A program made the translations under genes and the position numbers. Shown piece after piece: positions 2,199-11,503 of a stretch of 36,570 nucleotides of DNA. The notes under the pieces were generated by a model. It searched no databases and was not told where the DNA came from. It was given only the letters and a program-made list of their open reading frames with translations. Source of the stretch: Bacteroidota bacterium (lineage in GTDB: Bacteria; Bacteroidota; Bacteroidia; B-17B0; Aurantibacillaceae); NCBI GenBank assembly GCA_025363015.1, contig JANYEQ010000064.1, forward strand, positions 1-36,570, given 5' to 3'. Position 1 is the first letter of the stretch. Each line of letters opens with the position of its first letter.

Positions 2199-2612
2199 AT
2201 GAAGATTTTTTTAGGCACAATACTATTGTTATTATTTAGCTTTTGTAAGAAAAAAGATACGAAACCTAAACCTTTAAACGAACTTTTTGATGCCTCTCAA
2301 TCCACATTAATAAAGCAAGGTAGCTTAAATTCAAATGCTCATAGCGTATCAGGTACTATAAAATTATATAAAACAGGAGGCTTGAAAACATTATCTTTTG
2401 AGAACTTTAGTTCTGAAAGTGGTCCAGATTTAAAAGTGTATTTATCAACTTCTACAGGTAATAACGACGTAAAAGAACTAGGAGCATTAAAAGCAAATGC
2501 AGGTAATTTTTATTATCAATTTGATTCTTCAATAAAAACAACCACGTATAATTATGTGCTTGTTTGGTGTAAGCAATATTCGGTTTTATTTGGGAATACT
2601 AAATTACAGTAA
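2199..2612 (+). CDS. DM13-domain lipoprotein or secreted protein
   Basis: Exported protein of 137 residues. It begins with a short hydrophobic signal ending LFSFC-KKK; Cys16 could be lipidated, although Phe just before it is atypical for a lipobox. Residues about 30-137 form a DM13 domain (SVSGTIKLY, SFENFSSESGPDLKVYLS, YNYVLVWCKQYSVLFG). This domain occurs in animal and bacterial extracellular proteins and has been proposed to take part in redox or electron transfer through a conserved Cys, here in VWCKQYS. The stop codon directly abuts the ATG of the DoxX gene (TAA then ATG at 2613), so the two are surely co-transcribed. Confidence 0.82.
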   Translation: MKIFLGTILLLLFSFCKKKDTKPKPLNELFDASQSTLIKQGSLNSNAHSVSGTIKLYKTGGLKTLSFENFSSESGPDLKVYLSTSTGNNDVKELGALKANAGNFYYQFDSSIKTTTYNYVLVWCKQYSVLFGNTKLQ

Positions 2613-3014
2613 ATGAATACTAAAAAAATAATTTCATGGATAACAGCCATAATTGCAGCACTAATAATGTTACAAACATTATATTTTAAATTTAGTGCAG
2701 CACCCGAAAGTGTTTATATTTTTACAGCCTTGGGTATGGAGCCTTATGGTAGAATTGGTAGTGGCATTGTAGAACTTATTGCAAGCATATTAATTTTAAT
2801 TCCAACAACACGTTGGTTAGGCGCAGTATTGGGCATGGGCATAATATCAGGAGCAATTTTTGCACACTTTACAAAATTAGGTATAGCTGTAAATGCTGAT
2901 GGAGGATATCTTTTCATACTAGCAGTAGCAGTTTTTGTAAGTTGTGGAATATGTGTATATCTTGAAAAATATAAATTAAAATCGATGTATATTCGGTTTT
3001 TTTCTACACATTAA
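2613..3014 (+). CDS. DoxX-family membrane protein
   Basis: Inner-membrane protein of 133 residues with four predicted helices (about 7-27, 48-68, 72-90, 100-120). The pattern of FKFSAAPESVYIF, GRIGSGIVELIASILIL and NADGGYLFILA matches DoxX-like proteins. Some relatives are linked to sulfur or thiol oxidation or to quinone-dependent redox stress handling; most are uncharacterised. It starts at the base after the DM13 stop codon, so it is the second gene of a two-gene unit. A 159-bp gap follows before the next gene. Confidence 0.75.
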   Translation: MNTKKIISWITAIIAALIMLQTLYFKFSAAPESVYIFTALGMEPYGRIGSGIVELIASILILIPTTRWLGAVLGMGIISGAIFAHFTKLGIAVNADGGYLFILAVAVFVSCGICVYLEKYKLKSMYIRFFSTH

Positions 3015-4874: not shown

Positions 4875-4964
4875 GTTGAAATAAAATATATAAAAAGTCA
4901 TATAGATGACAATTACTTGAATTTTTTAAAATTAGTTTTGATAAATATTTAAATTTATAAAATC

Positions 4965-5549
4965 ATGAAAAAGCTATTCTATTTACTAATAGTATTAATA
5001 AATGTAAATTCATTTGATGCTCAAACTTCTCCTACGGGTCTTTTTGTAAATGATGTTGCCCCTGATTTTTCAGCTATTAATCAAAGTGGAAAATCAATAA
5101 ACTTAAAAGAACAATTAAAAACTGGAAATGTTGTTTTGATATTTTATCGTGGCGAATGGTGCGGCTATTGTAACAAACAATTAAAAAATTTAGAAGATTC
5201 GTTAGCGCAAATAACTAAAAAAGGTGCGACTGTTTTAGCAATAACACCCGAAAAAACTGAAAACGTTACTAAAACTATTGAAAAAACAAAAGTTACATTT
5301 TCAATACTATCCGACGATAATTTAAAGATAATGAATGCTTATAAAGTAACGTTTAGCTTAGATGAAAAAACAACTAAAAAGTATAAAGGGTACGGAATTG
5401 ATTTAATTGAATCTAATGGCAAAAATGGAAATAACCTTCCGGTGCCAGCCGTTTATATAATTAATAAAGAAGGTAAAATTATTTATCGTTATTTTGATGA
5501 AAAGTATAGTAATAGAGTGAGTGTAAATGAAATTTTATCACATTTATAA
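4965..5549 (+). CDS. Exported peroxiredoxin-like (AhpC/TSA) protein
   Basis: Protein of 194 residues with a signal peptide (about 1-20, ending FDAQ), so it probably acts in the periplasm. It has a thioredoxin fold: APDFSAINQSGKSINL, then FYRGEWCGYCNKQL with Cys66 and Cys69, then LAITPEKTEN and VPAVYIINKEGKIIYRYFD. The CxxC suits a thiol-disulfide reductase or a peroxiredoxin whose resolving Cys lies three residues after the peroxidatic one. The classic PxxxTxxC peroxidatic motif is replaced by YRGEWC, as in the peroxiredoxin-like subgroup. The Omp85-like gene starts 5 bp after its stop codon, suggesting one transcript. Confidence 0.85.
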   Translation: MKKLFYLLIVLINVNSFDAQTSPTGLFVNDVAPDFSAINQSGKSINLKEQLKTGNVVLIFYRGEWCGYCNKQLKNLEDSLAQITKKGATVLAITPEKTENVTKTIEKTKVTFSILSDDNLKIMNAYKVTFSLDEKTTKKYKGYGIDLIESNGKNGNNLPVPAVYIINKEGKIIYRYFDEKYSNRVSVNEILSHL

Positions 5550-5554
5550 ATTAA

Positions 5555-6643
5555 ATGTCCCGCTCTACTTTAATATATTTACTAATTATTATTTTCTTTT
5601 TTAGTATACACCAAAAATATTTTGGTTTTTTTTCTGATACAACAAAAATTAAAATAGGCATTTTACCTTCTGCATTTTATACACCTGAAACACGTTTGGG
5701 GTTCGGAGCATTGGCTTACACTTATTTTAATAGTACAAAAAAAGATACGCTTACTAAAAAATCAAATACACAAAGCTATTTGTCTTATACTTTAAATAAA
5801 CAATTTTCGTTTGAAAACGATTACCAAATTTGGACTAAAAAAAACGCATACTATTTTACTGGAGCTATTGATTATAGTCGCTTTCCTGAATTGTTTTTTG
5901 GTATAGGAAACGACACAAAACCAAGTGAAAACATTATGATTTCTTTTGATATTGTAAAAATACAAGCAAAAAATTTATCACGCGTATCTAAAAATATATA
6001 CGGAGGAATTTATTATCAATATCAAAATTTATTTAATCAAAATACAAAATTAGAATATAACACAATGTGCGAAAGTATTTCGGGAGGTTCTGGATATGAG
6101 GCAAGTGGTATTGGCCCTATTTTTATTTTTGATAAACGCGATAATCCCCTCAATCCAGAAAAAGGTGAATACATCGAAACATCTTTTCAATATTTTGATA
6201 AGCAAACGGGTAGCCAATATAAATTTAATACGTTTGTTTTAGATGTTAGAAAATACAACACCTTTTTTAAAAAATTAATTTGGAATGCTAATGCTTATAT
6301 TTATGTAAATAATGGCACAGTACCATACAGAATGTTAGCTACTATTGGTGGTGCAAGGTTTTTAAGAGGTTATTATCGCGGAAGGTTTAGAGATAATAAC
6401 ATGATTGTTTTGCAACAAGAATTTAGAATGCCAATTTATAAACGTATTGGCGTAGCGGCTTTTGGTGGAGTTGCTACTGTTGCAAATGCATTAACTGATT
6501 TTTATAAAAATGAAATACATTACAATTATGGGGTAGGATTAAGAATAAAAGTAAACAAAAAAGAAAATACAAATTTGCGTATAGATTATGGTTTTACAAA
6601 AGATTCACAAGGCTTATATGTGGTGTTTGCAGAAGCATTTTAA
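5555..6643 (+). CDS. BamA/TamA-family (Omp85) outer-membrane barrel without POTRA domains
   Basis: Outer-membrane protein of 362 residues. After an N-terminal hydrophobic segment (6-25), the whole chain is a beta-barrel of the D15/Omp85 type: IGPIFIFDKRDNPLNPEKGEYIETSF, then ARFLRGYYRGRFRDNN, the counterpart of the VRGF loop that inserts into the barrel, then LQQEFRMPIYKRIGVAAFGG and a terminal FAEAF. There is no room for POTRA repeats, so it is not BamA or TamA itself. It resembles the barrel-only group, sometimes linked to lipid or protein export. The downstream metalloprotease gene overlaps it by 26 bp. Confidence 0.85.
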   Translation: MSRSTLIYLLIIIFFFSIHQKYFGFFSDTTKIKIGILPSAFYTPETRLGFGALAYTYFNSTKKDTLTKKSNTQSYLSYTLNKQFSFENDYQIWTKKNAYYFTGAIDYSRFPELFFGIGNDTKPSENIMISFDIVKIQAKNLSRVSKNIYGGIYYQYQNLFNQNTKLEYNTMCESISGGSGYEASGIGPIFIFDKRDNPLNPEKGEYIETSFQYFDKQTGSQYKFNTFVLDVRKYNTFFKKLIWNANAYIYVNNGTVPYRMLATIGGARFLRGYYRGRFRDNNMIVLQQEFRMPIYKRIGVAAFGGVATVANALTDFYKNEIHYNYGVGLRIKVNKKENTNLRIDYGFTKDSQGLYVVFAEAF

Positions 6644-7316
6644 AATAATTGTACTAATAATAAGTATACTAGCAATAAATAATAGTATTTATTCGCAAAC
6701 CATTATAAAACAATTTAAAAAAGATTCTATTCGTTTTTATTTTAAGGATACGTTAACGGTTAGTAATAAAAAAATTCCACCAGAATATAATAATAGTATT
6801 AAAATAGCCTTAATCTATTATCCCGAATTATGTTCTACTAAAATAAAATTTAAAATAAAATCACAAGTATCACCTTTATCAGCACGCCCATCGTTATTTA
6901 GTATATTTCAAAAAGCAAAAAACCGAAAATATATTATTTGCATTAGTACTAAAACAATGCAAAGGTTTGATGCTATACTTTTAAAAAATTTAGCATTTAA
7001 TTCTCAAGTAGGGGTAATTGGTCACGAGTTAAGTCATATCGTTTTTTACAATAAACAGTATGGTATTTATTTTATTAAATTGTTTTTTATGCATTTAAAT
7101 AAAAATGCAATTGATAAATTTGAATACAATACAGATATACGTTGTATAGAACACGGCTTGGGCTATCAACTTTTATCGTGGAGTAAAGAAGTGCGATTGA
7201 AACTAAACCTAACCCAATGGAAGGGTATAAATGAAAATGACACTAATGGAAGAGAACGCTATATGAATCCTGAGAGCATTATTAAAATGATGCAAGAACT
7301 AAAAATGTATCAATAA
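6618..7316 (+). CDS. Exported HExxH zinc-metalloprotease-like protein
   Basis: Protein of 232 residues. ATG 6618 gives a signal peptide (about 1-27, ending NNSIYSQ); the ATG at 6588 would add ten residues and spoil it. GHELSHIV carries an HExxH zinc motif at 136-140, and EYNTD at 169-173 supplies the downstream Glu and Asp expected of a gluzincin, as in M48-like peptidases. A metal-dependent peptidase in the periplasm or on the outer membrane is likely. No close family is recognised. It starts inside the last codons of the Omp85-like gene, so translation is probably coupled, hinting that the two proteins act together at the outer membrane. Confidence 0.7.
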   Translation: MWCLQKHFKIIVLIISILAINNSIYSQTIIKQFKKDSIRFYFKDTLTVSNKKIPPEYNNSIKIALIYYPELCSTKIKFKIKSQVSPLSARPSLFSIFQKAKNRKYIICISTKTMQRFDAILLKNLAFNSQVGVIGHELSHIVFYNKQYGIYFIKLFFMHLNKNAIDKFEYNTDIRCIEHGLGYQLLSWSKEVRLKLNLTQWKGINENDTNGRERYMNPESIIKMMQELKMYQ

Positions 7317-7353
7317 CGTCGTTAAACCGACAATTTAATTTTTAACAATAAAT

Positions 7354-7361
7354 TAAATTTG
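7354..7361 (+). promoter_or_regulatory. -7 promoter element before the small barrel gene
   Basis: TAAATTTG matches TAnnTTTG exactly and ends 14 bases before the ATG at 7376. No good -33 element is visible. If real, it also drives the YceI-to-ATP-grasp genes. Confidence 0.4.
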
Positions 7362-7375
7362 GATAATAAAAAATT

Positions 7376-8119
7376 ATGAAAAAAAATTCAGCTCTACATT
7401 TATTTCTAATTCTTTTCTCTACATTTATAATAAATGCACAAGATACTTTGACCCATAGAAAAAATTATAAATACAATAATAATTTTGATGTAGCGCTTTC
7501 AGCATCTGCTAACCAGCAAATGGGAGCCTTATCTTGGGTACATTTTCATTCCGTAACAAAAAAACAGAGATTTAAAATTGGTTATGGTATTCGTTTTAAT
7601 TCGCAATTTGGTAAAAACTTAACCTACGTTACCGCTCCTGCAAGTATTACTTCAAAAAGAAACGATCCGGGCGTATTGTTTTCAAAAATTTATTACGAAA
7701 ATATTGATACTTTTTTTGTCGCTAAATCACAAAATAATTCACTAAATCTTAGTATTAATTTACAGTACACCATTAAACAAAAATTAGATATTGGTTTTAA
7801 TATTGATGCTATTGGCTTTTCGTTTGGTGCAAACACTACAGGTAAATACATTTCATCACAATCATCAGAAAGTGGGTCAACTAAAAGCGCCAAGCCAACT
7901 GCATTTAATTTATTATTAGTAAGCGATAACGATATTGGTTTTTTAAATTCAGAATTATATGCTAGGTATTGGTTTAATAAAAATTGGGGAGTTAAAGCGG
8001 GCGCTTCATTTATTTTTACTGAATATACTACCGATAATAAATTGCGTTTAGATAATAACCGTTGGCGGAACAAGGCTTTAATAGGTATGATAGGAATTAC
8101 ATATTCACCATTTAAATAA
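7376..8119 (+). CDS. Predicted small outer-membrane beta-barrel protein, unknown function
   Basis: Protein of 247 residues with a signal peptide (MKKNSALHLF... ending NAQ, about 1-21). The mature part alternates polar and hydrophobic residues in strand-length stretches (FDVALSASANQQ, RFKIGYGIRFNSQ, LSINLQYTIKQKLDIGFNIDAIGFSFGA, WGVKAGASFIFTEYT) and closes with IGMIGITYSPFK, as expected for an 8-10-stranded barrel. I do not recognise a named family. Only 9 bp separate it from the YceI gene, so it probably heads that operon and could be its outer-membrane component. A stretch about 155-170 rich in Ser/Gly/Thr looks like an extracellular loop. Confidence 0.7.
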   Translation: MKKNSALHLFLILFSTFIINAQDTLTHRKNYKYNNNFDVALSASANQQMGALSWVHFHSVTKKQRFKIGYGIRFNSQFGKNLTYVTAPASITSKRNDPGVLFSKIYYENIDTFFVAKSQNNSLNLSINLQYTIKQKLDIGFNIDAIGFSFGANTTGKYISSQSSESGSTKSAKPTAFNLLLVSDNDIGFLNSELYARYWFNKNWGVKAGASFIFTEYTTDNKLRLDNNRWRNKALIGMIGITYSPFK

Positions 8120-8128
8120 ATTTATAAA

Positions 8129-8680
8129 ATGAAGAAAATTAAATTTTTATGTTTGAGTATTAGCTTATTTTTTTTAGGTTTTAAAACTGCTATTGCTCAA
8201 AATACGGAATGGAGTGTTGTAACTTCAACGGTTACATTCAAAATAAAAAATGCTGGTTTTACAGTAGATGGCACTTTTGGAGGATTAAAAGCAAAAATTA
8301 TGTTTGATGCATCCAAATCATTTAGTAATACAATAGAGGCTTCAGTTGAAGCGAAAACGCTTAATACAGGAAGTACAGGCAGAGATAACCACTTAAAAAA
8401 AGAAGAGTATTTTGGAGTGGATAAACACCCTACAATTTTGTTAACCGCTTCAACATTTGCTAAACAACCTGATGGAAGTTTTAAAGGCTATTTTAAACTT
8501 ACGGTTAAAAATACAACTAAAGATGTTCTTATTCCATTTACATTCACTGAAAAAGATGGTAAAGGAAAATTTTTAGGAAAATTTACAATCGATAGGCGAG
8601 ACTATGGTGTTGGTGAATCGAGTATGATTTTATCAGACAATGTAACTATTTTAATAGATGCAAACGTTATAAAAAAATAA
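8129..8680 (+). CDS. YceI-family periplasmic protein
   Basis: Protein of 183 residues with a signal peptide (1-24, ending TAIAQ). It has a YceI domain: WSVVTSTVTFKIKNAGFTVDGTFGG, then GRDNHLKKEEYFGVDKHPTI, FKGYFKLTVKNTTKDV and FTIDRRDYGVG. The family forms a lipocalin-like barrel that binds isoprenoid or other long lipids in the periplasm. The stop codon is one base before the DinB start, so the two are translated together. YceI proteins are often stress-induced, but no regulator site is visible here. The family call is firm; the ligand is unknown. Confidence 0.92.
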   Translation: MKKIKFLCLSISLFFLGFKTAIAQNTEWSVVTSTVTFKIKNAGFTVDGTFGGLKAKIMFDASKSFSNTIEASVEAKTLNTGSTGRDNHLKKEEYFGVDKHPTILLTASTFAKQPDGSFKGYFKLTVKNTTKDVLIPFTFTEKDGKGKFLGKFTIDRRDYGVGESSMILSDNVTILIDANVIKK

Positions 8681-8681
8681 A

Positions 8682-9185
8682 ATGCTAAAACAAATTTCAA
8701 TAAAACAATTAGTGCAGCTAAAATCTATTCTCAATCAAATAGATGATTTAGATTATGCTAAGCCCTTATCTGTTATAGAAAACTCAACTATTGGTAAGCA
8801 TGTTAGGCATATTTTAGAATTTTACGAATGCCTTTTTAATGCATTAAACAAAAACGAAGTATGCTACGATGATAGAAAAAGAAATTTAATCCTAGAAGAA
8901 AGTATACGTTTTGCTAACGAATGTATAACAGGTGTTATTGAAAAAATTAATTTAATAGATATAAATAAACGTATTCTTTTAAAATCAAAATATGGGATGG
9001 ATGAACTATTTGTCGAAAGTTCTCTTTATCGTGAAATCACTTATAATATTGAGCACACAGTTCATCATTTAGCAATCATTCGTATTGCCGTCTCTAATCA
9101 ATTAAAATATATTAGTATAGATGAGGGCTTTGGCTATGCAGATTCTACTATTAATTATTTACAAACACAAAAAATTGCAAGCTAA
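8682..9185 (+). CDS. DinB/YfiT-like four-helix-bundle protein
   Basis: Cytosolic protein of 167 residues. It is largely helical with a metal-site pattern of the DinB superfamily: His40 in IGKHVRHILEF, and His125 and His129 in EHTVHHLAIIRIA. Members include metal-dependent thiol-S-transferases (bacillithiol and mycothiol) and enzymes of unknown role. Sequence alone does not tell which thiol, if any, is used. It lies 1 bp after the YceI gene and 4 bp before the NRDE gene, inside a tightly packed operon. Confidence 0.82.
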   Translation: MLKQISIKQLVQLKSILNQIDDLDYAKPLSVIENSTIGKHVRHILEFYECLFNALNKNEVCYDDRKRNLILEESIRFANECITGVIEKINLIDINKRILLKSKYGMDELFVESSLYREITYNIEHTVHHLAIIRIAVSNQLKYISIDEGFGYADSTINYLQTQKIAS

Positions 9186-9189
9186 ATAA

Positions 9190-9915
9190 ATGTGTACCGT
9201 TACTTATCTTCCACAAAGTGGTAACGCTTTTATTTTAACATCTAATAGAGATGAAGATATAACCCGACACGTTGCTTTACCAGTAAATAAATACCAAATA
9301 AATAATGTAGAAGTGTATTATCCTAAAGACCCCAAGGCAGGAGGCACATGGATGGCACATGGGTCTAACGGGTTTACAGTATGCTTATTAAATGGCGCAT
9401 TTACAGCGCATAACCCAACAGGTAATTATAAAAAAAGTAGAGGGTTAGTAGTGCTTGATTTTTTTATTTATAAAAATCAATATGATTTTATTGCTCGATA
9501 CGATTTTGCAAATATTGAACCCTTTACTTTAATTTTTGTAAAGCACTCTTCAGAAACTGTAACTGTTTGTGAGTTAAAATGGGATGGTATAAAAACGTAT
9601 CATACAAATTACGACGCATCTTTGCCACATATCTGGTCATCAGTTACACTTTATACCAACGATGTAATTAAACAGCGCGAAAATTGGTTTAGTGAATGGG
9701 CTAAGAATAATGAACTATTTTCAAAAGATAGTATTTTAATGTTTCATCATTTTGGTGGAAATGGAGACAATCAAAATGATTTAGTGATAAATAGAGATAC
9801 AAAAAAAACGGTAAGTATTTGTTGTATTAATAAATTAAATACTATCCTAACAGAAATAGTTTATGAAGATGTTATTAATAAAAAAATTTACTCCAATAAA
9901 ATAATTTCAGCTTAA
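9190..9915 (+). CDS. NRDE (TANGO2)-family protein
   Basis: Protein of 241 residues with no signal peptide. The family signature NRDE is at 19-22 (TSNRDED), and the chain begins MCT, with Cys2 placed as the possible N-terminal nucleophile of an Ntn-hydrolase-like fold. GGTWMAHG and VCLLNGAF also fit the family. The human homologue TANGO2 is linked to lipid and haem metabolism; bacterial members are mostly uncharacterised, and some are thought to be amidohydrolase-like. It lies 7 bp before the ATP-grasp gene; a ligase and an amidohydrolase-like protein side by side suggests making and cutting of an amide bond. Confidence 0.87.
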   Translation: MCTVTYLPQSGNAFILTSNRDEDITRHVALPVNKYQINNVEVYYPKDPKAGGTWMAHGSNGFTVCLLNGAFTAHNPTGNYKKSRGLVVLDFFIYKNQYDFIARYDFANIEPFTLIFVKHSSETVTVCELKWDGIKTYHTNYDASLPHIWSSVTLYTNDVIKQRENWFSEWAKNNELFSKDSILMFHHFGGNGDNQNDLVINRDTKKTVSICCINKLNTILTEIVYEDVINKKIYSNKIISA

Positions 9916-9922
9916 TTTATTA

Positions 9923-10948
9923 ATGCGCTTACCGCTTTTATATTATAAATTTTTTAGGTATGAGTATTGGCCAATGTTACTTTTTTACATTCCTATTTTG
10001 CCTTATTGGTTGTATTTAGCTATAAAAAACAAGTCGTTTGCTTATTTTAGTGTTGCTAATCCCGGTATTGAGTTGGGTGGCTTTTTTGGCGAAAGTAAAT
10101 CTGAAATTTTAGCGTTAATTGATCAGCACTATTTACCCAAAAGTATTAAAGTTAAAAATAAAACAGATTTTAATTTAATAATTAATCAATTAAAACTAAA
10201 TCAAATAAATTTCCCACTAATAGCAAAGCCCGATGTTGGAGAACGTGGCGATAGGGTGAGTAAAATTAATAACGAAGCTGAATTAATAACTTACCACTTA
10301 AATGCAAACTTAAATTATATTATTCAAGAATTTATTGATTATGAATTTGAGTTTGGCATATTGTATAGCCGCTTACCCAACTCACAAACGGGCGAAGTAA
10401 GTTCTGTTACTTTAAAAGAATTTTTAACAGTTATTGGTGATGGAACATCTACTATTCTTCAATTAATGCAACAAAATACAAGAGCACGTTTTCAAATTAA
10501 ACGATTAAAAATGCAAATGGGAAATGAAATTAACCGTACACCGCTCTTACATGAAAAAGTACTACTCGAACCCATTGGCAATCATTGTAGAGGCACACGT
10601 TTTATTAATTATAACCACATAATTAATCAAAAGCTACATCAAACTTTTGATAAAATTAGTTTGCCAATTAATGGATTTTATTACGGACGTTACGACTTAA
10701 AAGTAAAAACTATTGAAGATTTAATGTTGGGCGAAACCATAAAAATTATGGAATTAAATGGTGCAAGTTCCGAACCTGGACATATTTACGATACTTCTTT
10801 TACGTTATTTAAAGCCTACAAAGATATGCGTTACCATTGGAAACGATTGGCAGATATTTCTGCAATACATATTAAAAAGGGCTTAAAGCCAGTTTCATTT
10901 TCTGTTATTATTAAAACGTATTGTAAGTTTGTTTTATTAAAAAAATAA
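9923..10948 (+). CDS. Membrane-anchored ATP-grasp ligase (D-Ala-D-Ala ligase-like)
   Basis: Protein of 341 residues. One hydrophobic segment lies near the N-terminus (about 12-33). An ATP-grasp fold follows: LIAKPDVGERGDRV (nucleotide-binding loop), YIIQEFIDYEFEFGI, and the metal-binding end IMELNGASSEPGHIYD. ATP-grasp enzymes join a carboxylate to an amine or thiol through an acyl-phosphate. The sequence is too far from Ddl to call it a peptidoglycan ligase, and the N-terminal membrane segment argues for a membrane-associated or lipid-linked substrate. It is the last gene of the YceI-DinB-NRDE unit; the 135 bp after it contain no clear hairpin terminator. Confidence 0.82.
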   Translation: MRLPLLYYKFFRYEYWPMLLFYIPILPYWLYLAIKNKSFAYFSVANPGIELGGFFGESKSEILALIDQHYLPKSIKVKNKTDFNLIINQLKLNQINFPLIAKPDVGERGDRVSKINNEAELITYHLNANLNYIIQEFIDYEFEFGILYSRLPNSQTGEVSSVTLKEFLTVIGDGTSTILQLMQQNTRARFQIKRLKMQMGNEINRTPLLHEKVLLEPIGNHCRGTRFINYNHIINQKLHQTFDKISLPINGFYYGRYDLKVKTIEDLMLGETIKIMELNGASSEPGHIYDTSFTLFKAYKDMRYHWKRLADISAIHIKKGLKPVSFSVIIKTYCKFVLLKK

Positions 10949-11083: not shown

Positions 11084-11503
11084 ATGGCATTAATTGTAAA
11101 AACATCTCAACTACCAAACGCAGGCAAAGGCTTGTTTACTACTACTCCTATAAAAAAAGGCGAACAGGTAATAGAATACGAAGGCGAAATTATTGATTGG
11201 GCCGAGTACGAAAAACGTGTATTAGAAGATAAAGATGGTTATTTATTTTTTATAAATAAAAAACGTTGTATTGATGCTTTTGCAACCCCACAACACAAAG
11301 CTCGTTACGCCAATGACGCAGCAGGCCTAAGCCGAGTAAAAGGCTTAAAAAACAATTGTAAGTACGAAGTAAAAAAAAATAAATGCTATATAGTAGCCGA
11401 AAAAAATATTAAAGCAAATGAAGAAATTTTTGTAACCTACACCAAAGAATATTGGGATTGCATTCGCTACAACATAAAAAACAAATTGTATAAAACTAAA
11501 TAA
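11084..11503 (+). CDS. SET-domain protein methyltransferase
   Basis: Compact SET protein of 139 residues without pre- or post-SET cysteine clusters. Visible motifs are NAGKGLFTTTPIKKGEQVIEYEGE (the opening GxGxF region), RYANDAAG (74-81, counterpart of RFxNHSC, with Asn77 contacting AdoMet) and EEIFVTYTKEYW (113-124), with Tyr119 as the likely catalytic Tyr. SET enzymes transfer methyl from AdoMet to lysine; bacterial substrates are rarely known. Here the usual His of NHS is Asp, an odd change in the cofactor pocket. It stands alone between the ATP-grasp operon and ilvE, with its own promoter-like element. Confidence 0.88.
   Translation: MALIVKTSQLPNAGKGLFTTTPIKKGEQVIEYEGEIIDWAEYEKRVLEDKDGYLFFINKKRCIDAFATPQHKARYANDAAGLSRVKGLKNNCKYEVKKNKCYIVAEKNIKANEEIFVTYTKEYWDCIRYNIKNKLYKTK

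Follow-up and report, generated by a model that had tools for sequence, protein, structure and literature searches.

A conserved DinB-NRDE-ATP-grasp gene module of Bacteroidota with a predicted membrane-bound amide ligase

What might be made by four genes of different folds, for a YceI-like, a DinB-like, an NRDE/TANGO2-family and an ATP-grasp protein, that stand packed together on a 36,570-nucleotide stretch of Bacteroidota DNA (contig JANYEQ010000064.1; hereafter the window)? We find that DinB, NRDE and ATP-grasp form a conserved functional unit across many Bacteroidota, and that this three-gene core probably builds and exports an amino-acid-containing, possibly lipid-linked molecule. The reading we prefer, to which we assign a probability of roughly 40%, is that of an amide ligase bound to the membrane and coupled with export, whose substrate is most likely an amino acid lipid. 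Full-text literature searches returned no description of a DinB-NRDE-ATP-grasp module.

Gene order and conservation of the core

The four ORFs are consecutive on the + strand (8129-10948), separated by 1 bp (YceI/DinB), 4 bp (DinB/NRDE) and 7 bp (NRDE/ATP-grasp), and a barrel gene (7376-8119) ends 9 bp ahead of the YceI start; the original prediction had this arrangement exactly right when ORF coordinates were checked. They close a tight + strand run of eight genes (4965-10948; gaps of 5, -56, 59, 9, 1, 4 and 7 bp). The features referred to below are as follows, with fractions of 96 counting the ATP-grasp loci defined further on.

2199..2612, + strand: DM13-domain gene adjoining DoxX, a separate unit in the window (PF10517)
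2613..3014, + strand: DoxX-like membrane protein, a separate unit in the window (profile of the recurring DoxX family)
4965..5549, + strand: AhpC/TSA-TlpA-like thiol redox protein, genus-level partner (PF00578)
5555..6643, + strand: Omp85-superfamily outer membrane barrel, genus-level partner (PF01103)
6588..7316, + strand: HELSH-containing protein (HExxH by eye), genus-level partner (13/96 loci)
7376..8119, + strand: secreted barrel-like protein, lineage-specific partner (26/96 loci)
8129..8680, + strand: YceI-like protein with a signal-peptide-like start, lineage-specific partner (PF04264)
8682..9185, + strand: DinB/YfiT-fold four-helix protein, core (AF2 fold, conserved His)
9190..9915, + strand: NRDE/TANGO2-family protein of a divergent subfamily, N-terminal Met-Cys, core (PF05742)
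9923..10948, + strand: predicted ATP-grasp carboxylate-amine ligase, 341 aa, core (AF2 fold, conserved residues)

Promoter and terminator scans of the window gave nothing exceeding shuffled sequence, and we therefore infer co-transcription of the operon solely from spacing and conservation. Sigma-70-like and TANNTTTG sites occur in the window at chance-level frequency; TANNTTTG is found at 4933 and 7354, preceding the AhpC/TSA and barrel genes, respectively. Chance packing of the four genes can be ruled out, because their order is kept in relatives; moreover, none of 20 arbitrary 20-kb control loci from 16 genomes carries LysE, YHS, DoxX, YceI, DinB or NRDE (a sigma54-regulator match was found in 5 of these loci and Omp28 in 1). 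Searches with PADLOC models against six operon proteins matched no family at E ≤ 0.01, and a role in phage defence was rejected.

The original prediction proposed a survey of gene neighbourhoods across Bacteroidota, and this survey reveals co-conservation of DinB, NRDE and ATP-grasp; the lack of co-conservation that would have refuted the prediction was not seen for these three. Strong matches to any ATP-grasp and to DinB occur together in 59 of 394 other Bacteroidota genomes, with ATP-grasp alone in 11, DinB alone in 3 and neither in 321; by genus, these counts are 31, 4, 2 and 133. For the stand-alone ATP-grasp and NRDE, both are found in 33 genomes, only ATP-grasp in 7, only NRDE in 4 and neither in 350 (16, 6, 4 and 144 by genus). 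Fisher tests on such tables ignore tree relatedness, an effect that the genus-level version lessens and does not abolish. Strong matches alone were counted, which retains 71 of 132 genomes for ATP-grasp (own genome included; G384, at 2.7e-34, and 60 weak matches dropped), 38 of 93 for NRDE (own genome included; 55 weaker matches dropped) and 63 of 64 for DinB (G244 dropped), and a few kept matches run through stop codons (NRDE in G376, G345, G087 and G368; DinB in G095 and G144). NRDE lies ≤10 kb from the stand-alone ATP-grasp in 27 of the 33 co-occurring genomes and outside that range in 6, and DinB lies ≤10 kb from ATP-grasp in 29/35 cases for stand-alone enzymes and 22/24 for those fused to a membrane domain (see below). 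Same-strand adjacent pairs number 48 for NRDE-ATP-grasp (median gap -7), 41 for DinB-NRDE (median gap 2) and 41 for ATP-grasp-LysE (median gap -4). NRDE is fused to the ATP-grasp N-terminus in two fetched loci (L140 and L141), and a LysE-ATP-grasp fusion protein is encoded in L142. The module occurs in strains of Emticicia, Spirosoma and Larkinella, and in Fulvivirga as the form with no NRDE nearby.

The partners of this core vary. Neighbours were counted in 96 loci, i.e., 99 fetched loci minus three without ATP-grasp (L046-L048); three of the 96 (L050, L051 and L063) duplicate L035, L034 and L036, and without them (n = 93) the counts are DinB 77, NRDE 54, LysE 50, YHS 46, DoxX 28, YceI 24 and barrel 23. 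The quick tree and the residue-conservation counts leave out L049 along with these duplicates. The named loci represent the best 80 of 583 and so favour relatives of the window, and most of the 40 neighbour families listed for the 96 loci lack annotation. YceI belongs to its family by sequence (PF04264, E 7.3e-26, 91.8 bits, cut-off 23.7), and the barrel protein has no Pfam or NCBIfam match, with 35 invariant columns in a 12-row family alignment. YceI is near ATP-grasp in 27/96 loci and the barrel in 26/96; both are traits of a single lineage of the module, so of the four genes first proposed as a unit, three stand and YceI falls outside the core. Recurring partners further include YHS (46/96), DoxX (28/96, adjoining the core), Crp/Fnr regulators (12/96), DM13 and the Omp85-superfamily barrel (11/96 each; barrel PF01103 37.6 bits, cut-off 24) and AhpC/TSA (7/96; PF00578 E 3.6e-29); the HELSH protein has no Pfam match. 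In the window, the DoxX-like protein scores 191.7 bits against the recurring-family profile (PF13564 E 1.8e-4, below cut-off), and the DM13 gene scores 131.4 bits against its own recurring profile and 61.4 bits against PF10517 (cut-off 25). Against the small 20-locus control, YceI, DoxX and the barrel show modest enrichment only (Fisher 0.003-0.006), and HExxH, DM13 and Crp show no significant enrichment. RecX (20/96) and NadC (14/96), named by eye, were judged to reflect synteny within a single lineage. In a single locus, L040, a HemJ-family gene (PF03653) overlaps ATP-grasp.

The variable mix of Crp/Fnr, YHS, DoxX and YceI would suit a stress regulon in which the genes share regulation alone and no common pathway. 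We give this a slim chance, since NRDE-ATP-grasp and LysE-ATP-grasp fusions, together with co-occurrence across genomes even beyond 10 kb (6/33 for NRDE), argue against it.

Three core proteins

Searched by sequence against the PDB one at a time, the operon proteins gave no useful match. The AF2 model of the ATP-grasp protein (pLDDT 95.6) places it in the ATP-grasp superfamily by fold, with VIA neighbours that include cyanophycin synthetase CphA1 (7wae_A, Z 17.4, rmsd 4.0, 272 aligned aa), the bifunctional glutathione synthetase 3ln6 (Z 14.6) and 5k2m_H (Z 14.4); its profile matches 8fxh (E 1.4e-6). The nearest solved structures are thus CphA1 and the GshF/LysX/RimK ligases, which have the fold in common with the window enzyme, whereas the hydrophobic N-terminal segment and the other gene neighbours set the latter apart. 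It is not a cyanophycin synthetase, a multi-domain protein of ~870 aa, as it has 341 aa against 877, is 16% identical and matches residues 163-480 of the 877. By sequence it falls under every Pfam cut-off (RimK PF08443, 14.1 bits, cut-off 21), and some homologs from the fused branch exceed that of RimK (e.g., L136, 33.2 bits). K102, E143, K165, R256, D258, E277 and N279 are conserved in 130/130 homologs; from the roles known for D-Ala ligase, we take K102 and K165 to be the nucleotide lysines and R-x-D ... E-x-N to be metal/catalytic residues. The model and these residues suggest that the protein is probably an amide-bond-forming carboxylate-amine ligase. Its most hydrophobic 19-residue stretch begins at residue 16 and is only mildly hydrophobic (mean 1.5), and the N-terminal segment carries the motif YEYWP in the window and WEYWP in the consensus. 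Fold model, PF05742 match and hydrophobic stretch are in line with the original pairing of an ATP-grasp ligase, carrying a putative N-terminal membrane segment, with an Ntn-like Cys2 NRDE protein.

The NRDE protein scores 55.3 bits against PF05742 (the family of the human disease protein TANGO2; cut-off 22.6) and, like TANGO2 and the bacterial homolog HtpA, has the Met-Cys start and the NRDE motif, with M1, C2, R20 and D21 in 66/66 homologs and E22 in 65/66. It differs from them in standing in an operon with ATP-grasp and in being divergent, as its match covers PF05742 positions 1-180 of 257 rather than the full length, and operon copies in 14 genomes score 39.9-58.1 bits, while canonical copies, which match to position 255 or 256, reach 222-263 bits in five relatives. 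Human TANGO2 was reached in the PDB by the NRDE profile only at E 0.09. HtpA is described as binding heme and helping cytochrome c maturation (PMC10470608), which invites a reading of the locus as a stress module concerned with heme, metals or redox, in which the TANGO2-like protein would traffic heme or some thiol compound, YHS, DM13, DoxX, YceI and AhpC/TSA would serve periplasmic redox or metal handling, and ATP-grasp would yield a chelator or cofactor. The frequent YHS, DoxX and DM13 neighbours and the HemJ-family gene of L040 fit, but HemJ occurs in that one locus only, the operon NRDE is divergent, no cytochrome maturation gene was recognised among the identified neighbours (most of the 40 families being unannotated), and human TANGO2 is reported to bind acyl-CoA instead (PMC11867700). 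We regard this reading as quite unlikely.

The DinB protein has the DinB/YfiT four-helix fold in its AF2 model (pLDDT 96.9), with a best VIA match to DR0053 (6iz2_B, Z 15.4); ranks 1-35 are mostly DinB/YfiT, thiol S-transferase or EgtB/OvsA/OvoA chains, and rank 36 has Z 5.5. Plain Foldseek reached DinB chains at E 6e-3 at best, above the 0.001 threshold, and by sequence PF05163 is matched at E ≤ 0.01 by 23/52 members of the family, the window protein matching no Pfam family. H40 and H43 are conserved in 110/110 rows, and H125, H128 and H129 in 109/110, the remaining row being a gap. Fold and clustered histidines are in common with BstA (5wk0, Z 11.6), mycothiol S-transferase (8f5v, 11.5), OvsA (12.1) and the N-terminal domain of EgtB (4x8b, 10.8), although a Z under ~13 for helical bundles may mean mere common arrangement; identity to BstA, mycothiol S-transferase and EgtB is 7-16%, and the window protein has its own motif, GxHxRH ... 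EHxxHH. These likenesses, and that of the ligase to 3ln6, would fit a low-molecular-weight thiol pathway in which ATP-grasp would act like GshF in making a thiol peptide, with DinB as a BstA-like thiol S-transferase. However, family members of uncharacterised function stand at the top of the DinB matches, and among the identified neighbours we noticed no gene for thiol synthesis; we consider such a pathway very unlikely. The thiol-containing product of the original prediction has the DinB fold alone in its favour.

Export, lipid context and predicted product

A LysE-type gene directly follows ATP-grasp in 41 loci (PF01810 in 14/15 members scanned) and is absent beside the window operon. Beyond the class of the window, ATP-grasp carries a fused VTT/DedA membrane domain, which exceeds the VTT cut-off in 9/9 proteins scanned. 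The proposed synthesis and export therefore fit, as an amide-forming enzyme adjoins a Cys2 protein and LysE or VTT/DedA recurs with ATP-grasp, and the fused branch speaks for the lipid link, as OlsB- and OlsA-like genes there lie directly upstream of DinB or the fused ATP-grasp. Each is present in 28 of 29 fused loci and both in 27 (L133, OlsB-like only; L189, OlsA-like only), the 29 leaving out G133, a thirtieth fused genome; an unlisted 266 aa ORF stands at the OlsB position of L189. The profiles were built from six confirmed loci, and each gene is matched in 22/23 fused loci unused in that building. By best NCBIfam name, these neighbours are ornithine N-acyltransferase or lyso-ornithine lipid O-acyltransferase, with every score below the curated equivalog cut-offs. 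The fused branch thus has the gene arrangement of OlsBA aminolipid operons, which lends the lipid link independent support. The window operon lacks this arrangement, unlike OlsB/OlsA and GlsB/GlsA pathways, as acyltransferase genes are absent beside its ATP-grasp; the same profiles find no OlsB-like gene and one weak, distant OlsA match (L101) in stand-alone loci L030-L128, and an OlsB-like query found no match in the own genome, which shows little by itself.

A possible, if somewhat unlikely, alternative is that the product is no lipid but a soluble amino acid or peptide amide, metallophore- or antibiotic-like, which ATP-grasp forms by joining two amino acids and LysE exports. Amino acid ligases provide the closest folds, the LysE-type gene comes right after ATP-grasp and is fused to it in L142, and in a third context ATP-grasp has YqcI/YcgG and DUF1989 neighbours, which suggest arginine N-hydroxylation, the function described for the YqcI/YcgG family (PMC12866846), and, for some members, a substrate of soluble arginine type. 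The OlsB/OlsA context speaks for a lipid instead, and the N-terminal segment is kept even in VTT-fused enzymes (E14 in 25/29, W16 in 29/29).

In the preferred reading of a membrane-bound ligase, the conserved hydrophobic segment would hold ATP-grasp at the inner membrane, where the enzyme would activate a carboxylate as acyl phosphate and join it to an amine, as in cyanophycin synthetase and D-Ala ligase; the carboxylate would most likely be that of a lipid-borne amino acid. The LysE-type exporter or the fused VTT/DedA domain may then move the product across the membrane, with secreted partners handling it in the periplasm or outer membrane (YceI and the barrel in the window; YHS, DM13 and other barrels elsewhere), and DinB and the Cys2 NRDE protein may carry out tailoring or editing steps.

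Against this reading count the lack of LysE beside the window operon, the stand-alone loci without adjacent Ols-like genes, the third context, the mild hydrophobicity of the segment and the distribution of the GlsB-type N-acyltransferase. The GlsB glycine lipid is weakened as a general substrate. The own genome has a GlsB above its cut-off, located elsewhere than the operon, and in the genus of the window GlsB is found in 10/10 tested genomes with the ATP-grasp family and, equally, in 17/17 without a strong match, so that there it does not track ATP-grasp and is no sign of a link. Outside this genus, 40 genomes with the stand-alone enzyme comprise 16 without a GlsB-family match and 24 with one (23 of these below cut-off, in frames of 543-626 aa), and GlsB is absent from 2 of 4 further such genomes (G047 and G049); class genomes without a strong ATP-grasp match have GlsB in 16/20 and lack it in 4/20. 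Ten fused-branch genomes gave 6 weak matches and 4 with none.

Tentatively, and with the expectation that it is unlikely to hold, we propose that the ATP-grasp family supplies the missing headgroup ligase, independent of tRNA, for the amino acid lipids of Bacteroidota. On this view the enzyme would extend an N-acyl amino acid lipid with an amino acid at its free carboxylate, a step required for glycine-serine (flavolipin) or glycine-serine-ornithine lipids; NRDE would be a Cys2 Ntn-type enzyme editing or recycling the same amide. The VTT/DedA-fused form would be a one-protein ligase and flippase of MprF-like design. MprF is a tRNA-dependent lysyl-phosphatidylglycerol synthase domain fused to a flippase, and the fused-branch protein likewise joins bond-forming and lipid-transporter-like domains; it is not MprF, however, as ATP-grasp replaces the tRNA-dependent synthase and VTT/DedA the flippase, and the window enzyme is stand-alone. 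As reviewed, glycine lipid synthesis stops at the acyloxyacyl amino acid, whereas in the fused branch ATP-grasp and DinB follow the acyltransferases; the same 2023 review calls the exact glycine-serine lipid (flavolipin) pathway unknown, with serine supposedly added to glycine lipid (PMC10191378). Glycine-serine lipids are reported from Porphyromonas and Bacteroides. Flavolipin interacts with TLR2, according to a review (PMC11631085).

The VTT/DedA-fused ATP-grasp behind OlsB- and OlsA-like genes is thus a concrete candidate for a flavolipin-type step, at least in the fused branch. Through its NRDE subunit, the module links one member of the TANGO2 family, for which heme binding is reported by some and acyl-CoA binding by others, to a defined enzyme partner in bacteria amenable to culture and gene deletion.

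Genes and proteins of the window operon

We find that the four open reading frames of the original prediction lie exactly where it had placed them, all on the forward strand and separated by 1, 4 and 7 bp, and that the barrel gene indeed ends 9 bp ahead of the YceI gene.

Features of the operon and its surroundings
2199-3014: DM13 gene and DoxX gene, apart from the operon
4965-7316, forward strand: interval holding AhpC/TSA protein, Omp85-type barrel and HExxH protein, upstream of the operon
7376-8119: barrel gene
8129-8680, forward strand: YceI
8682-9185, forward strand: DinB
9190-9915, forward strand: NRDE
9923-10948, forward strand: ATP-grasp

The YceI protein matches PF04264 (91.8 bits) and the NRDE protein is of the TANGO2 family (PF05742, 55.3 bits versus a cut-off of 22.6); no Pfam model scores above cut-off for the ATP-grasp and DinB proteins. 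Structures predicted from alignments of 46 (ATP-grasp) and 52 (DinB) rows have pLDDT values of 95.6 and 96.9, respectively. The ATP-grasp model superposes on cyanophycin synthetase over 272 residues (VIA Z 17.4, rmsd 4.0) and on other ATP-grasp ligases, and the DinB model aligns best with chains titled DinB/YfiT (VIA Z 15.4), which would place it in that superfamily; VIA ranks 1-35 are mostly DinB/YfiT, with rank 36 down to 5.5, and the best Foldseek E-value is only 6e-3. A short SET-domain protein (11084-11503; PF00856, 59.2 bits) lies downstream of the operon. The window's DM13 and DoxX genes abut at 2612/2613, and each belongs to a family found repeatedly next to the core module elsewhere.

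Across 130 ATP-grasps (101 stand-alone or fused to NRDE or LysE, 29 VTT-fused), K102, E143, K165, R256, D258, E277 and N279 are invariant, as is W16 of the N-terminal segment, where E14 and P24 are found in 126 and 128 proteins, respectively. Since this segment is kept even beside a fused multi-span membrane domain, its conservation suggests a function beyond anchoring. M1, C2, R20 and D21 of NRDE are present in 66/66 proteins and H40, R42 and H43 of DinB in 110/110, with H125, H128 and H129 in 109/110 and a gap in the last row; the roles of all these residues we take to be those of better-known family members.

Conservation and co-occurrence of the core module

The order of the genes is genuine and is kept in relatives. 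ATP-grasp matches occur in 19/60 genomes, including the window's own, two of them weak (E 6e-4) and inside long frames. The complete order AhpC/TSA-Omp85-HExxH-barrel-YceI-DinB-NRDE-ATP-grasp is present in four loci of the same genus (L030, L032, L034 and L035), and what remains outside the window's family is DinB-NRDE-ATP-grasp or DinB-ATP-grasp. Together, the earlier loci and 80 named ones (the best 80 of 583 relatives) give 96 loci with ATP-grasp; those of the named loci that the tree includes all carry a Bacteroidota label. Within about nine genes of ATP-grasp, with three duplicate loci included, we find DinB in 80, NRDE in 57, a LysE-type exporter in 51 (PF01810 in 14/15 members scanned), a YHS-domain secreted protein in 46 (NF041384, 147.9 bits in one member, from L140), DoxX in 28, YceI in 27, the barrel in 26, HExxH in 13, Crp/Fnr in 12 and DM13 in 11. 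These families are absent from 20 arbitrarily placed 20-kb control loci from 16 genomes with ATP-grasp; five of these control loci hold a sigma54-regulator match and one holds Omp28. The core of the conserved unit consists of DinB, NRDE and ATP-grasp, not of all four genes originally named; YceI is near ATP-grasp in 27/96 loci.

Profiles of the three core proteins, searched against 395 genomes spread over the Bacteroidota, give, with the own genome left out, strong matches to stand-alone ATP-grasp in 40 genomes, the long fused form in 30, operon-type NRDE in 37 and operon-type DinB in 62; NRDE of this type is found in 0/30 genomes with fused ATP-grasp.

Co-occurrence by strong matches, own genome left out (both; first only; second only; neither)
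ATP-grasp and DinB, genomes: 59; 11; 3; 321
ATP-grasp and DinB, genera: 31; 4; 2; 133
Stand-alone ATP-grasp and NRDE, genomes: 33; 7; 4; 350
Stand-alone ATP-grasp and NRDE, genera: 16; 6; 4; 144

A HemJ-family gene (UPF0093, PF03653; L040:8948-9589) overlaps the ATP-grasp gene end by 4 bases, and a single NRDE gene lies between two ATP-grasp paralogs at G348:C1:2451324-2454174. Differing secreted barrel-like proteins, judged by eye, fill operon slots in different lineages (L094:8530-9207, L043:7888-8727, L069:7762-8715); in one such family the three displayed members begin, behind their signal peptide, with a QGCSDAGxC motif.

Fusions and the acyltransferase branch

In L140 and L141, NRDE is joined to the ATP-grasp N-terminus, which leaves its Met-Cys start free, and L142 encodes a LysE-ATP-grasp fusion. 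Outside the window's class, in families f45, f51, f63 and f66, ATP-grasp forms the C-terminal region of a larger protein, 807-905 aa long. A VTT domain scores above cut-off in 9/9 such proteins scanned (54.9-68.7 bits) and an N-terminal alpha/beta hydrolase domain in five (L131, L132, L133, L135, L139); the latter falls slightly below cut-off in L136 and is not recognisable in L129, L130 and L134. The NCBIfam model nearest to the L131 VTT part, the undecaprenyl phosphate transporter UptA, scores 66.4, far below its cut-off of 250. VTT-fused forms make a single clade in a quick tree (nine rows, SH-aLRT 100).

Directly upstream, OlsB-like and OlsA-like genes each occur in 28/29 fused-branch loci, both in 27, and each in 22/23 loci outside profile building; operon-type DinB lies upstream on the same strand in 21/29. 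In the seven loci named with NCBIfam (L129, L131-L136), where all scores are below curated cut-offs, the OlsB-like genes are called ornithine N-acyltransferase (best E 1.8e-44) and the OlsA-like genes lyso-ornithine lipid O-acyltransferase (best E 1.1e-45), except in L133, whose outermost upstream gene has no match at E <= 1e-10. The operon of L129-L136, L139 and L170-L189 reads OlsB-like, OlsA-like, (DinB), VTT + ATP-grasp.

The ATP-grasp family also appears in a distinct pathway context, once LysE-fused (L042:2318-4631, L045:1129-3525, L142:4923-7926), with YqcI/YcgG in all three loci scanned and DUF1989 in L042 and L142; in L045 a neighbour resembles DUF1989 by eye. YqcI/YcgG is the heme guanidine N-hydroxylase family.

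Candidate substrate and mechanism

In the open full-text literature of PMC we find no description of the module among the matches listed; subscription literature may hold an earlier mention. ATP-grasp and ornithine lipid meet there in one paper, with ATP-grasp in a reference title. ATP-grasp amidoligases were reportedly surveyed in 2009. Review PMC10191378 terms the flavolipin pathway unknown, PMC12493201 describes a further route to N-acyl amino acids via the GH3-like OlsH (almost 90% of BLAST hits in Bacteroidota), and PMC8433624 reports glycine-serine and glycine-serine-ornithine lipids from Chitinophaga and Olivibacter.

The window's own genome encodes GlsB (461.8 bits, cut-off 300), yet the GlsB lipid is unlikely as a general substrate, because GlsB does not follow ATP-grasp: it occurs in 10/10 genomes of the genus with ATP-grasp and 17/17 without, and outside the genus a GlsB-family match is found in 24/40 stand-alone-type genomes (23 of the 24 below cut-off) versus 16/20 comparison genomes of the class lacking a strong ATP-grasp match.

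The simplest common reading would be a carboxylate-amine ligase facing the membrane and coupled to a transporter, with YceI as putative lipid carrier, LysE as candidate exporter of the ligase product and DinB and NRDE as possible tailoring enzymes. Genomic context lends support to the general form of the proposed synthesis and export of a small molecule; for its lipid version the contextual support is good in the OlsB/OlsA branch and mixed in the window's branch. In the fused branch, the OlsB/OlsA context points to an acyloxyacyl amino acid carrying a free carboxylate as the probable substrate.
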